Origin: Methanosaeta sp. PtaB.Bin018
Lineage (GTDB): Archaea > Halobacteriota > Methanosarcinia > Methanotrichales > Methanotrichaceae
Assembly: GCA_002067755.1 (NCBI GenBank)
Contig: MVQH01000075.1
Coordinates: 1 to 55,480, forward strand
Direction: 5' to 3'
Length of the DNA stretch: 55,480 bases
Positions within the stretch are counted from its first letter, which is position 1. The number at the start of each line of letters is the position of its first letter. Position numbers and translations under genes: made by a program. Shown piece after piece: positions 8,587-19,293 of the stretch. The notes below the pieces were generated by a model, which worked only from the letters and a program-made list of their open reading frames with translations, was not told the origin of the DNA and made no database searches.

Positions 8587-8859
8587 CTATCTCAGGGCTT
8601 CATCGATGGCCCTTGAGAGCTCTTCTTTAGAGGTGACGCCAATCCACTTTTTCAGTTCCACGCCATCCTTCTCCAGTATGAGCGTAGGCACAACGAAGAT
8701 CCCCTTCTCTGCAGCCAAATCCCCTTCCTTGTCCACATTTACCTTCCTGAACTCCGCCTTCTCCCCGAACTCCTTTGCAAGATCCTCAAAGATGGGGCCC
8801 TGCATCCTACAAGGTCCGCACCAGTCAGCATAAAAGTCCATTAGGACTATCTTAGCCAT
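8587..8859 (-). CDS. Thioredoxin
   Basis: A compact 90-aa thioredoxin with the classical redox-active WCGPC (residues 13-17), the cis-proline block VVPTLILEKDG and the C-terminal helix. It is shorter at the N-terminus than E. coli thioredoxin, as many methanogen thioredoxins are. It would reduce disulphides of cytosolic proteins, receiving electrons from a thioredoxin reductase not present here. A GAGGTGATC ribosome-binding site precedes the ATG. Confidence 0.93.
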   Translation of the reverse strand: MAKIVLMDFYADWCGPCRMQGPIFEDLAKEFGEKAEFRKVNVDKEGDLAAEKGIFVVPTLILEKDGVELKKWIGVTSKEELSRAIDEALR

Positions 8860-8882
8860 GGCTTCCGATCACCTCACAAATA

Positions 8883-9338
8883 TCAGATTATATCGAACTT
8901 CACACCTATCTTGAATATCTTTCCCGTTGGAAGGACCAGTAACTTGCGTCCTGTGCGGATGCGGATCTCTTGCAAGATCTCTTGTATCCGGTCCTCGTGT
9001 GCTGAGACAGTGAACCACAGGTTATAGCCGCTCTCGTTCGGCCTCAAGTAGTTATGTGAGACTTCGGGATATTCGCTCACCACTTGGGCTGCTTCATCTG
9101 CCTCTTCTACAGGCACCTGTAAAGCCGCCAGCATCCCTCCCATGCCGAATTTTCGCAGATCAAGGATAGGACCAATCCTTCGAACCAGGCCCTCCTTCTG
9201 CAGCGCAGAAAGCCGCACAATTACCTCATCCTCGCCAAGACCAAATGCATCTCCCAGATCACAAAATGGTCGAGAGGTCAGAGGCAAGCCCTCCTGCACA
9301 GCAGCCAGGAGCTTGAGATCGATCTCGTCCATTGTCAC
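8883..9338 (-). CDS. Siroheme decarboxylase subunit, Lrp/AsnC-like (AhbA/AhbB family)
   Basis: A 151-aa protein with an N-terminal helix-turn-helix and a ligand-binding half typical of NirD/NirG-type siroheme decarboxylases, e.g. LVRRIGPILDLRKFGM and SHNYLRPNESGYNLWFTV, where the His-Asn-Tyr-x-Arg stretch is the recognised active-site region. Two such subunits together convert siroheme to 12,18-didecarboxysiroheme in the alternative haem pathway. Only one is in the window, so AhbA cannot be told from AhbB. The GTG at 9338 overlaps the radical SAM stop (GTGA); an ATG at 9332 is the alternative start. Its operon partner supports a haem rather than regulatory role. Confidence 0.85.
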   Translation of the reverse strand: MTMDEIDLKLLAAVQEGLPLTSRPFCDLGDAFGLGEDEVIVRLSALQKEGLVRRIGPILDLRKFGMGGMLAALQVPVEEADEAAQVVSEYPEVSHNYLRPNESGYNLWFTVSAHEDRIQEILQEIRIRTGRKLLVLPTGKIFKIGVKFDII

Positions 9339-10294
9339 ACCGAAAGGTTGCAGAGCGGGTCAGGTCCCAGGAAATCCCCTGTCTTGGCATAGGCCCTGGC
9401 CCGGCACCCACCGCACATCCCGCTGTAGTCACAGGCACCACACCTTCCCTTGAGATCTCTTTCTCTGAGGGCCAGGAGCACTGGAGAGTTCTTCCATATC
9501 TCTATAAAATTTTTTTCCCTGATGCTCCCCACGCTAAGAGGTAGGTAGCCGCACGGGTAGACCTCGCCCCTTCTGGAGACGAAGGCGAAGCTTCTGCCTG
9601 CGAGACATCCTCCTGTGTGCCTGCCTGGCTGAGCCAGCCTGGCGAACTGCGGTGCGCAGGTGACCTGGACCTCCAGGCCCCTCCTCCCTCGCTCCGCATC
9701 TATGAGGAGGAGCAGCTCCTCTTGCCTCTCAGCTGAGATCAGATCATCGGGCTGGCCGCGACCTGTGGGTACCAGGAAGAAGAGATGAAGAGCCTTTGCG
9801 CCTTCAGCCTCTGCTAGGTCGAAGGCCCTGAGCACATCGGCCTCATTTCTCCTGGTGATCGTGAAATTGATCTGAAAATCCACCTTTGCGCGCAGACACT
9901 CGACCCCGCGCATGGCTGCTTGAAAGCTCCCTGGACCACGATTCAGATCATGCTTCTCTGCCGAGGCGCCATCAAGGCTTATGCTAACCCTTGAAATTCC
10001 CGCAGCAGCTATCTCATTCGCCGATTTTGGAGTGATCAAAGTCCCATTGGTTGCCAAAGAGACTCGCAGGCCCTGAGATACTGCATGCCTGGCCAGAAGA
10101 AGAATGTCAGGGCGAAGCATCGGCTCGCCCCCACTGAGAATGAGCATCGGCCTCAGGGGGGCGATGCTGTCGATGAATGAGACTGCCTCCGCTGTGCTGA
10201 GCTCATCGGGCTGGGGATTTGGGGAGGCAGAAGCGCGACAGTAGCTGCACGAGAGGTTGCAGGCAGCAGTCGTCTCCCAGGCTACGATCAACAT
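9335..10294 (-). CDS. Radical SAM haem-biosynthesis enzyme, AhbD-like
   Basis: A 319-aa radical SAM/SPASM protein. The cluster-binding CxxxCxxC is C12-C16-C19 (ACNLSCSYC); the glycine-rich SAM motif LSGGEPMLR follows, then LFFLVPTGRGQ and a C-terminal cysteine-rich SPASM region (CLAGRSF, CGYLPLS, GRCGACDYSGMCGGC, terminal C) for an auxiliary 4Fe-4S cluster. Sequence and linkage to a siroheme decarboxylase point to AhbD (Fe-coproporphyrin III to haem) or, less likely, AhbC. The organism would need haem for membrane cytochromes. The ATG at 10294 overlaps the asd stop (TGATG); a GTG one codon earlier is possible. Confidence 0.8.
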   Translation of the reverse strand: MLIVAWETTAACNLSCSYCRASASPNPQPDELSTAEAVSFIDSIAPLRPMLILSGGEPMLRPDILLLARHAVSQGLRVSLATNGTLITPKSANEIAAAGISRVSISLDGASAEKHDLNRGPGSFQAAMRGVECLRAKVDFQINFTITRRNEADVLRAFDLAEAEGAKALHLFFLVPTGRGQPDDLISAERQEELLLLIDAERGRRGLEVQVTCAPQFARLAQPGRHTGGCLAGRSFAFVSRRGEVYPCGYLPLSVGSIREKNFIEIWKNSPVLLALRERDLKGRCGACDYSGMCGGCRARAYAKTGDFLGPDPLCNLSV

Positions 10295-17174: not shown

Positions 17175-17182
17175 TCATTTTT
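17175..17182 (+). repeat. Target-site duplication, left, of MITE copy 1
   Basis: TCATTTTT immediately left of the element; repeated exactly at 17334-17341. Confidence 0.85.
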
Positions 17183-17333
17183 GGCTCTTCGCTAAATTGT
17201 GTGGGTGAGATCGGGCATAAAATATCTCCTCTGTGCCTCTGTGGTTCAGTTAGCGAATCACGTTTCAGTACAGAGTCACGAAGACACAGAGATTTTGCGA
17301 TTCAAGTTCACCCATACTAAATAGCGAGGAGCC
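17183..17333 (+). mobile_element. MITE-like non-autonomous element, copy 1 (151 bp)
   Basis: A 151-bp element bounded by imperfect ~26-bp terminal inverted repeats (GGCTCTTCGCTAAATT... at the left, GGCTCCTCGCTATTTA... when the right end is read in reverse) and flanked by a perfect 8-bp duplication TCATTTTT (17175-17182 and 17334-17341). It has no gene. Inside, TTCGCTAA/TTAGCGAA and CTCTGTG/CACAGAG pairs let the strand fold on itself. It differs from copy 2 only by lacking one 8-base TCTCTGTG unit. GGCTCTT ends with 8-bp target duplications resemble ISL3-family insertion sequences, so an ISL3-type transposase elsewhere is the likely driver (inference). Confidence 0.88.
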
Positions 17334-17341
17334 TCATTTTT
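17334..17341 (+). repeat. Target-site duplication, right, of MITE copy 1
   Basis: TCATTTTT, identical to 17175-17182. Confidence 0.85.
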
Positions 17342-17400
17342 TATCGGCTGCAGCCGCGTGCATTGGCTGCCGCGTCCCTGTTTTAGCCTAGATATCCTTA

Positions 17401-17730
17401 TCAGATCTTCAACTCATCAAGTATCTTTAGAACAACTACTGATCCGTAGGCAGCACCAGGCCCTCCTGCCATCAATATGGCAGCACCAGTCGCCTCCAGG
17501 ATCTCCTGACGGCTGGCCCCCAGTTTCACTGCCATTGGCACATGATTCCACAGGCAGTACTCGCACTTGAGGGCAACGGCGACGGCTACCAATATAAGTT
17601 CCTTGGTTTTTGTGTCCAGTGCCCCCTCCTTGGTGACTTCATCGTGTAGCAGCTTCAATGCCTTCGTCACTTCTGGCATTTCCTTTTCCAATGCAGCCAT
17701 TCTTTCTTGCATATCTATTCTCTGATTCAT
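17401..17730 (-). CDS. Carboxymuconolactone decarboxylase / AhpD-like protein
   Basis: A 109-aa all-helical CMD-family protein with the redox-type signature CEYCLWNHVPMAVKLGASRQEILE (Cys-x-x-Cys followed by His four residues later), as in AhpD-like peroxidase-reducing proteins. It may act in thiol-dependent peroxide or alkyl-hydroperoxide defence; substrate not determined. ATG at 17730 preferred over the TTG at 17748, which adds only six residues. Monocistronic, with the MITE downstream. Confidence 0.85.
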   Translation of the reverse strand: MNQRIDMQERMAALEKEMPEVTKALKLLHDEVTKEGALDTKTKELILVAVAVALKCEYCLWNHVPMAVKLGASRQEILEATGAAILMAGGPGAAYGSVVVLKILDELKI

Positions 17731-18384
17731 ACTATCGCCCAATTGCAACGATGTAATCAGTTTTTGCCAAGGTCTTCTCGAAGATCATATCATGAATCAG
17801 AATTTCATTGTCGCTTATGGCATGTATATTCTCAGCCTGCACAAAATCTCATCGGCTACTTTCATAGTCTCAACCCATTCTCTAGCAGACGCGCCATGGC
17901 AGACTTGCCTGGGCGCTTCATAGGTATGGCTAGAGGCAAAGTAGACTGGCTTTCGAATAACTTTAGTGGAATTAAATCATATTTACTAATAAATCTTTTG
18001 CTTAACATCACATCATCCTTCTTCCCGGAGCTTCTTTTAGGTCGCAGCGAACGCTTTTTTTTAAAGCTCATTCTCGGGATGTGCTTGCCCTGGCAGCCTC
18101 TCCTGCTCGGCAATCCTGGCCTCGTACTTGCATCGGTTGCCATTTGCCGCTGAACGCTCTCCCAGGATTCTCGGCCAATTCATCTCACCATCGAGAAGGG
18201 AGGTTGGGATGGATGCAGTGCTCGCGGGCAACTTAGGCCAGCTGCCTGCCGGACTCAAGCTCGGACACTGCAGATATCTTGAACTCTTAAGGTCGTAGCG
18301 CAGCCTCATTTTTGCCGTATGCTTCCCACCATGAGTCGGCATTGTTTAACCGGCTGTCCATTCGGTGGGGGGTTCACAGCAAAA
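17731..18384. other. Gene-poor stretch between CMD gene and MITE copy 2
   Basis: About 650 bases with only short overlapping frames in both directions, none with a recognisable domain, good ribosome-binding site or family-like start. The right edge (about 18372-18384) is the original 3' end of trmY before the MITE inserted. It may hold decayed sequence; nothing else identified. Confidence 0.45.
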
Positions 18385-18392
18385 AATTTGTA
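18385..18392 (+). repeat. Target-site duplication, left, of MITE copy 2
   Basis: AATTTGTA immediately left of the element; repeated exactly at 18552-18559, inside trmY. Confidence 0.85.
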
Positions 18393-18551
18393 GGCTCTTC
18401 GCTAAATTGTGTGGGTGAGATCGGGCATAAAATATCTCCTCTGTGCCTCTGTGTCTCTGTGGTTCAGTTAGCGAATCACGTTTCAGTACAGAGTCACGAA
18501 GACACAGAGATTTTGCGATTCAAGTTCACCCATACTAAATAGCGAGGAGCC
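18393..18551 (+). mobile_element. MITE-like non-autonomous element, copy 2 (159 bp)
   Basis: Same element and same orientation as copy 1, 159 bp because the TCTCTGTG unit is present in an extra copy; otherwise base-for-base identical as far as I can align by eye. Perfect 8-bp flanking duplication AATTTGTA (18385-18392, 18552-18559). Its right inverted repeat overlaps the 3' end of trmY and supplies that gene's present stop codon. Near identity of the two copies implies recent transposition. Confidence 0.88.
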
Positions 18552-19137
18552 AATTTGTATCCATCATCCAATTCATAAGAACTATGCAGTGATCAGCATG
18601 CAGGCTGACAGGCCCAATGGAGACCACCACTGCTCCAGCCTGCTCGATCACAGTCCACTCTTTGGGCGCAATGCCCATGTGGTCACCGAGGATGAATGCC
18701 ACATCTCCGGAAATGTCGCAGCCCGCAACGCTGCGAATATCCGCACCATCCTCTCGCAAGCACAGCATCCTCGCGCCCTTCAGGTCCGCAAGAACGTTTG
18801 CAAGCCCTCCAGTCCGAACGAATATGCCGGACGTGGACGATGCCCAATCAGGCGTGGCAGACACTGCAAGTGCTTTTTTTAGCAATGCAGCCGTTGTGCG
18901 CTCATCAGGGTTCAGGTGGCGCAATGTCTCGCCATCAAGCCGTACCGTCTTTGGGATCTCGCCGCCCAGGAGCACGAGGTAGACGCAGACATCTTTTCGT
19001 ATGCCATGAGAGAGGACGAAGGCCGCCGTAACGCAGCGGCAGAGGATGTCGAGCCGTCCTGATGTGCCGGGGATGTCCTCTAAAGAGAACATGGGCGTGG
19101 TTGTGGCCTTGTTTCCGATGATGACGAAATTGCGCAT
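18535..19137 (-). CDS. trmY: tRNA (pseudouridine(54)-N1)-methyltransferase TrmY, 3' end altered by a MITE
   Basis: SPOUT-fold SAM-dependent methyltransferase that makes N1-methylpseudouridine at tRNA position 54 in archaea. The 200-aa protein starts MRNFVIIGNKATTTPMFSLE, the standard TrmY start, and carries ILGDHMGI and SIGPVSLHADHCIVLMN, the SPOUT knot and SAM-binding C-terminal region. The frame extends to 19290 but family starts support 19137. The last residues after MDTN (WLLAI, then TAG) are encoded by the inverted repeat of MITE copy 2. Joining the bases across the element and removing one target duplication restores MDTNFLL followed by TGA. The catalytic core is untouched, so it is probably still active. 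Confidence 0.9.
   Translation of the reverse strand: MRNFVIIGNKATTTPMFSLEDIPGTSGRLDILCRCVTAAFVLSHGIRKDVCVYLVLLGGEIPKTVRLDGETLRHLNPDERTTAALLKKALAVSATPDWASSTSGIFVRTGGLANVLADLKGARMLCLREDGADIRSVAGCDISGDVAFILGDHMGIAPKEWTVIEQAGAVVVSIGPVSLHADHCIVLMNWMMDTNWLLAI
18552..18559 (+). repeat. Target-site duplication, right, of MITE copy 2
   Basis: AATTTGTA, identical to 18385-18392; on the minus strand it encodes part of the TrmY tail (Asp-Thr-Asn). Confidence 0.85.
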
Positions 19138-19293
19138 GCTCAGATGAGAACGGAGATGAGATACAAGCCACTTTCGATCCATGTGTGTCATGCGCCAGTC
19201 GCGTGCGATCCTGTGAAGTCCTTGCAGTCCTGCAGCGTCCCGAAAAGAATAATAACCCATAGATGGATTTATGCCCATCAACCGGAGCATAAA

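Follow-up and report, generated by a model that had tools for sequence, protein, structure and literature searches.

Two short elements in the window, by which we mean the whole stretch of 55,480 nucleotides analysed here from Methanosaeta sp. PtaB.Bin018, are copies of a single MITE that, judging by its ends and duplications, an ISL3-family DDE transposase very probably mobilises in trans. The copies lie in the same orientation at 17183-17333 (151 bp) and 18393-18551 (159 bp). They have the typical features of ISL3-family MITEs: at 151-159 bp they are shorter than 500 bp, and they are non-coding, multi-copy and bounded by inverted ends. The features of both copies, together with a gene that runs into the second, are as follows.

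17183..17333, plus strand: MITE copy 1, 151 bp, minus one 8-bp word (TCTCTGTG)
17175..17182, no strand: target duplication TCATTTTT to the left of copy 1, from the sequence
17334..17341, no strand: target duplication TCATTTTT to the right of copy 1, present once in the empty site of the same-genus genome G014
17183..17208, plus strand: copy 1, left terminal inverted repeat of ISL3 type, GGCTCTTCGCTAAATTGTGTGGGTGA
17308..17333, minus strand: right terminal inverted repeat of copy 1, GGCTCCTCGCTATTTAGTATGGGTGA
17229..17248, plus strand: core of copy 1, hairpin arm with two CTCTGTG words and GTTCA
17270..17291, plus strand: core of copy 1, facing hairpin arm, ACAGAG T CACGAAG A CACAGAG
18393..18551, plus strand: MITE copy 2, 159 bp; further full copies in the genome are identical to it
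18385..18392, no strand: target duplication AATTTGTA to the left of copy 2, from the sequence
18552..18559, no strand: target duplication AATTTGTA to the right of copy 2, found once on contig C90, in the trmY paralogue that is free of the MITE
18393..18418, plus strand: left terminal inverted repeat of copy 2, from end comparison
18526..18551, minus strand: right terminal inverted repeat of copy 2, from end comparison
18439..18466, plus strand: core of copy 2, hairpin arm with three quasi-tandem CTCTGTG words and GTTCA
18488..18509, plus strand: core of copy 2, facing hairpin arm, from sequence and folding
18535..19290, minus strand: trmY-like gene (PF04013), its final codons and stop inside the end of MITE copy 2

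The terminal inverted repeats are 26 bp long and match at 21/26 positions, and neither copy has any transposase coding between its ends. The sole difference between the two copies is one 8-bp unit, which is precisely one word from the quasi-tandem core array, most likely lost or gained by slippage. The initial annotation had already described two same-orientation copies of these lengths and positions that differ by eight bases, with imperfect repeats of about 26 bp, perfect but differing 8-bp target duplications (TCATTTTT and AATTTGTA) and no encoded transposase, and all of this holds. A dispersed repeat of ~358 bp (18020-18377) ends a few bases to the left of copy 2; more copies of it occur both elsewhere in this genome and throughout the genus, including several in genome G004 at ~69% identity.

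The number of matches to the element in the whole genome (2.2 Mb, 104 contigs) is 33, which is far beyond chance. Fourteen of these are recent full copies at ≥98% identity, counting the copy in the window that lacks 8 bp. Their target duplications all differ in sequence and are perfect (8/8) in 13 of the 14, with 7/8 in the remaining one; the absence of duplications from other copies, raised earlier as grounds for doubting mobility, is not what is seen. A fifteenth copy, split over contigs C59 and C7, could be rebuilt from the overlapping contig ends and carries CTATTTCA on both outer flanks. In older copies (80-88% identity), the duplications have decayed to 4-5 of 8 positions. Taken together, the 16 listed duplications (15 MITE copies and the parent IS described below) are 80% A+T, versus 48% for the window. 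The site of copy 1 is found empty in G014, whose sequence matches the locus at 90% identity, without the element and with a single target, TTATTTTT. For copy 2, the comparison is with a trmY-like paralogue on contig C90 that is free of the MITE and ~93% identical from the target AATTTGTA onward. This trmY-like gene is duplicated in the genome: its second copy (C90:11595-12184, 93% DNA identity) resides on the contig of the parent ISL3 element, and the copy in the window has its stop codon supplied by MITE copy 2.

The empty site in G014 also bears on an alternative in which the element would not be mobile DNA but a regulatory hairpin or a conserved gene for a structured RNA. Both strands do fold far better than shuffled sequences (z -6.8 and -6.3), but the fold is symmetric on the two strands, as with any long inverted repeat, and there is no Rfam match at E≤1. 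Furthermore, copies sit at different locations with a new duplication at each, and the orthologous site in G014 is empty. A structured RNA conserved in place, which had been named as a possible refutation, is therefore rejected, and we regard an immobile RNA as exceedingly unlikely.

The mobile reading gains a candidate enzyme from contig C90, where a 1303-bp ISL3 element (8682-9984) encodes an intact transposase of 406 aa with Zn-ribbon, HTH and DDE domains (PF01610, 2.8e-74; NCBIfam transpos_ISL3, 3.6e-100). It is the only full ISL3 transposase in the genome, and only one full copy of the parent element is assembled. Aligned in the correct orientation, the two parent ends agree with the MITE ends at 22/28 and 24/28 positions and deviate at 4-6 of 28, while the best match inside the IS reaches 16/28. 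The parent has a perfect duplication of its own, with GAAAAGGA on both sides, and is the kind of ISL3 element that had been predicted to lie elsewhere in the genome. The same prediction had left room for an IS1595-family transposase as the enzyme that moves the MITE. The length of the duplications, 8 bp, fits such a transposase, and only that does; PF12762 has no match in the genome, which does contain an ISL3 element whose ends and duplication length agree with those of the MITE. With its transposase family absent from the genome, an IS1595 parent is largely refuted and, in our estimate, extremely improbable. In the ISL3 reading, the transposase would bind the shared ends of ~27 bp (GGCTCYTCGCT...GTGGGT) and would cut and join the MITE in the same way as its own element, the mobility of the MITE being something we infer from sequence.

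A second ISL3-ended MITE subfamily is present in the same genome, with a length of ~200 bp, duplications ACAAAATA and TTTTTTTT and a CACAGAG core, at these two places.

L300 271-470 (contig C95): second ISL3-ended MITE subfamily, ~200 bp
L298 216-416 (contig C24): second ISL3-ended MITE subfamily, ~200 bp

ISL3 elements of ~1.3 kb with similar ends also occur in relatives, flanked by perfect duplications in G004 and G021, by a 7/8 duplication in G006 and by none in G025. Related MITEs with their own duplications are found in G004 and G035. The latter genome, which is 99% complete, holds ~10 such MITEs, most with perfect duplications; no relative of the ISL3 transposase was detected in it, so for G035 one has to suppose that a different enzyme is at work or that the parent has been lost. 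Several elements in the relatives G010 and G020 have a core of the same CACAGAG kind as the MITE in the window. Genome G011, in which no relative of the ISL3 transposase was found, contains a hairpin-free family of ISL3-ended MITEs of 191 bp (L383-L388); five copies have perfect duplications, and the core holds no CACAGAG words. The MITEs of G011 show that the hairpin is dispensable for mobility and that the MITE core is cargo.

What is this cargo? While the MITE reading of the initial annotation is borne out, the nature of the core, a foreign repeat found across phyla, was overlooked. The ~100 bp between the MITE ends fold into a long hairpin, one arm of which reads CTCTGTG C CTCTGTG T CTCTGTG GTTCA and faces a partly decayed partner arm. 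The core of such MITEs typically, but not obligatorily, arises by internal deletion of an IS. Here, the best blastn match of the core to the IS (E 0.63) is not significant, and the core as a remnant of the parent ISL3 element was rejected. The reverse complement of the copy-2 arm instead shares TGAACCACAGAGACACAGAGGCACAGAGG, 29 nt, with two bacterial loci (L343 and L316), an identity that extends one base beyond the arm. Each of these loci has a gene of the little-studied GxxExxY family (PF13366/TIGR04256) between such word arrays. By its words, the MITE core is thus of the same sequence class as the arrays that bracket GxxExxY genes in numerous bacteria and a few archaea, and the MITE, we infer, took up a non-autonomous fragment of a repeat system linked to these genes. 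In the most likely history, ISL3 ends would have captured a CACAGAG hairpin, or would have been invaded by one, and ISL3 would then have spread the hairpin as cargo.

The words of the core are widespread. A scan that took one genome for each species yielded at least 120 stretches with the exact 20-mer CTCTGTGCCTCTGTGGTTCA, where our own arithmetic gives a chance expectation of ~0.5 in 257 Gb (two strands, uniform base composition). Hosts among the matches listed include Planctomycetota, Sorangium, Chloroflexi, cyanobacteria, Proteobacteria, Verrucomicrobia and Spirochaetes, besides others. Among these same listed matches are at least six GxxExxY genes, the distance to the motif being 22-40 bp for four of them and 231 bp for one. 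Within the genus, a degenerate form (CTCTGTGNCTCTGTGGT) occurs at up to 74 places per genome, versus none for a reversed control pattern. The printed repeat words appear in no paper of the open-access literature searched, and a paper in it that names GxxExxY does not discuss repeats.

GxxExxY is encoded in 33/40 genomes chosen for holding the motif and in 3/14 well-known control genomes. The survey of the genes drew on genomes holding the motif, with plasmid and viral records as a set selected independently of it. Most GxxExxY genes are bracketed by inverted arrays (L313-L382, L408-L411) of a word that varies by locus (CACAGAG, CGCAAAG, CGCCAAG, CACGAAA, CGCAGAT, CACGGATT, CGCTAAT and others). 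In their 150-bp flanks, 57 of 74 genes lie above the 99th percentile of 3570 control windows, compared with 3/268 displaced windows at the same loci and ~1% of controls (Mann-Whitney p ~3e-34 against control windows and ~3e-27 against displaced windows). Among the plasmid and viral records, 7/13 genes exceed the same threshold, though two of the seven have identical flanks and therefore represent one lineage. Viral relatives of GxxExxY on two IMG/VR contigs (L406, L407) have inverted arrays of an AT-rich word, TACTTAAAATT, on either side. The type of word tracks the protein subfamily (Mantel r=0.44, p≤0.0005, 61 loci; the maximum of 2000 permutations is 0.19), a correlation between protein identity and word similarity to which shared descent could contribute. 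One GxxExxY gene is annotated between fabD and fabG on a Sphingomonas plasmid, and others were located within carA-carB, gatA-gatB and trpD-trpC by reading the flanking proteins. The genes of these four pairs are normally adjacent, and GxxExxY genes often lie inside operons.

Pfam places GxxExxY in the PD-(D/E)XK superfamily. The conserved residues D63, E73-x-K75 and Q87 (numbering of protein A2) would fit an active nuclease of this kind; a search by sequence with the GxxExxY profile returned no solved structure. Arrays point outward around the gene in most bacterial loci; those of the MITE, and of relatives including G010, point inward, as they also do around the gene at L320. Given these associations, the CACAGAG core could be the true mobile unit, moved by GxxExxY-type proteins, with the ISL3 ends being secondary. 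This would agree with the same words bracketing GxxExxY genes in many phyla and with hairpins in relatives that lack recognised ISL3 ends. In the source genome, however, the unit that bears duplications is bounded by ISL3 ends and no GxxExxY gene is present, and the hairpin-free ISL3 MITEs of G011 have spread with perfect duplications, which leaves this very unlikely. A link within the genus between CACAGAG copy number and the presence of GxxExxY is likewise unconvincing, the copy-rich G010 and G020 lacking the gene just as the source genome does; it was therefore probably ISL3, and not GxxExxY, that spread the hairpins within the genus. At the wider scale, we tentatively suggest that GxxExxY and its inverted quasi-tandem arrays may form a widespread mobile system, of which the CACAGAG hairpins seen across phyla would be non-autonomous products and the MITE core one such product, taking a second ride on ISL3 ends within this archaeal genus. 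From the associations analysed here, we regard this as possible, though slightly less probable than its converse.

Elements of the ISL3 MITE kind are known from two other hosts. In Microcystis aeruginosa PCC 7806, a 187-nt ISL3-type MITE (PMC11448079) has ends that start with GGCTCTTCG, 8-nt duplications and a stem-loop, and the host genome also encodes an ISL3 transposase whose element has matching ends. It differs in its cyanobacterial host, and the part of that paper describing it, on which the comparison draws, does not mention a CACAGAG core. Methanosarcina acetivorans harbours a MITE related to ISMac21 (179 bp, 6 copies; PMC3852290) that is likewise archaeal, ISL3-derived and of similar length, with tabulated repeats of 22 and 7 bp; it belongs to a different host genus and is likened here by description. 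The element in the window thus belongs to an already known kind, and adds another case of the published pattern with unusually complete proofs: a parent IS, an empty site and many duplications. The core is the more important part, as it links the GxxExxY family to a large class of dispersed and unexplained repeats found in environmental genomes. That GxxExxY proteins might recognise and spread these repeats is a concrete hypothesis, testable by DNA-binding and cleavage assays.

A further analogy is with REP/REPIN repeats, short inverted repeats that flank the gene of a RAYT (Y1 HUH) transposase, have dispersed copies without the gene and are of a type that follows the protein subfamily. The GxxExxY arrays appear similar in placing inverted repeats around one small nuclease-like gene, in their dispersed gene-less copies and in a repeat type that tracks the subfamily. 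Unlike RAYT, GxxExxY falls by Pfam in the PD-(D/E)XK superfamily and not among HUH proteins, and its arrays consist of quasi-tandem words.
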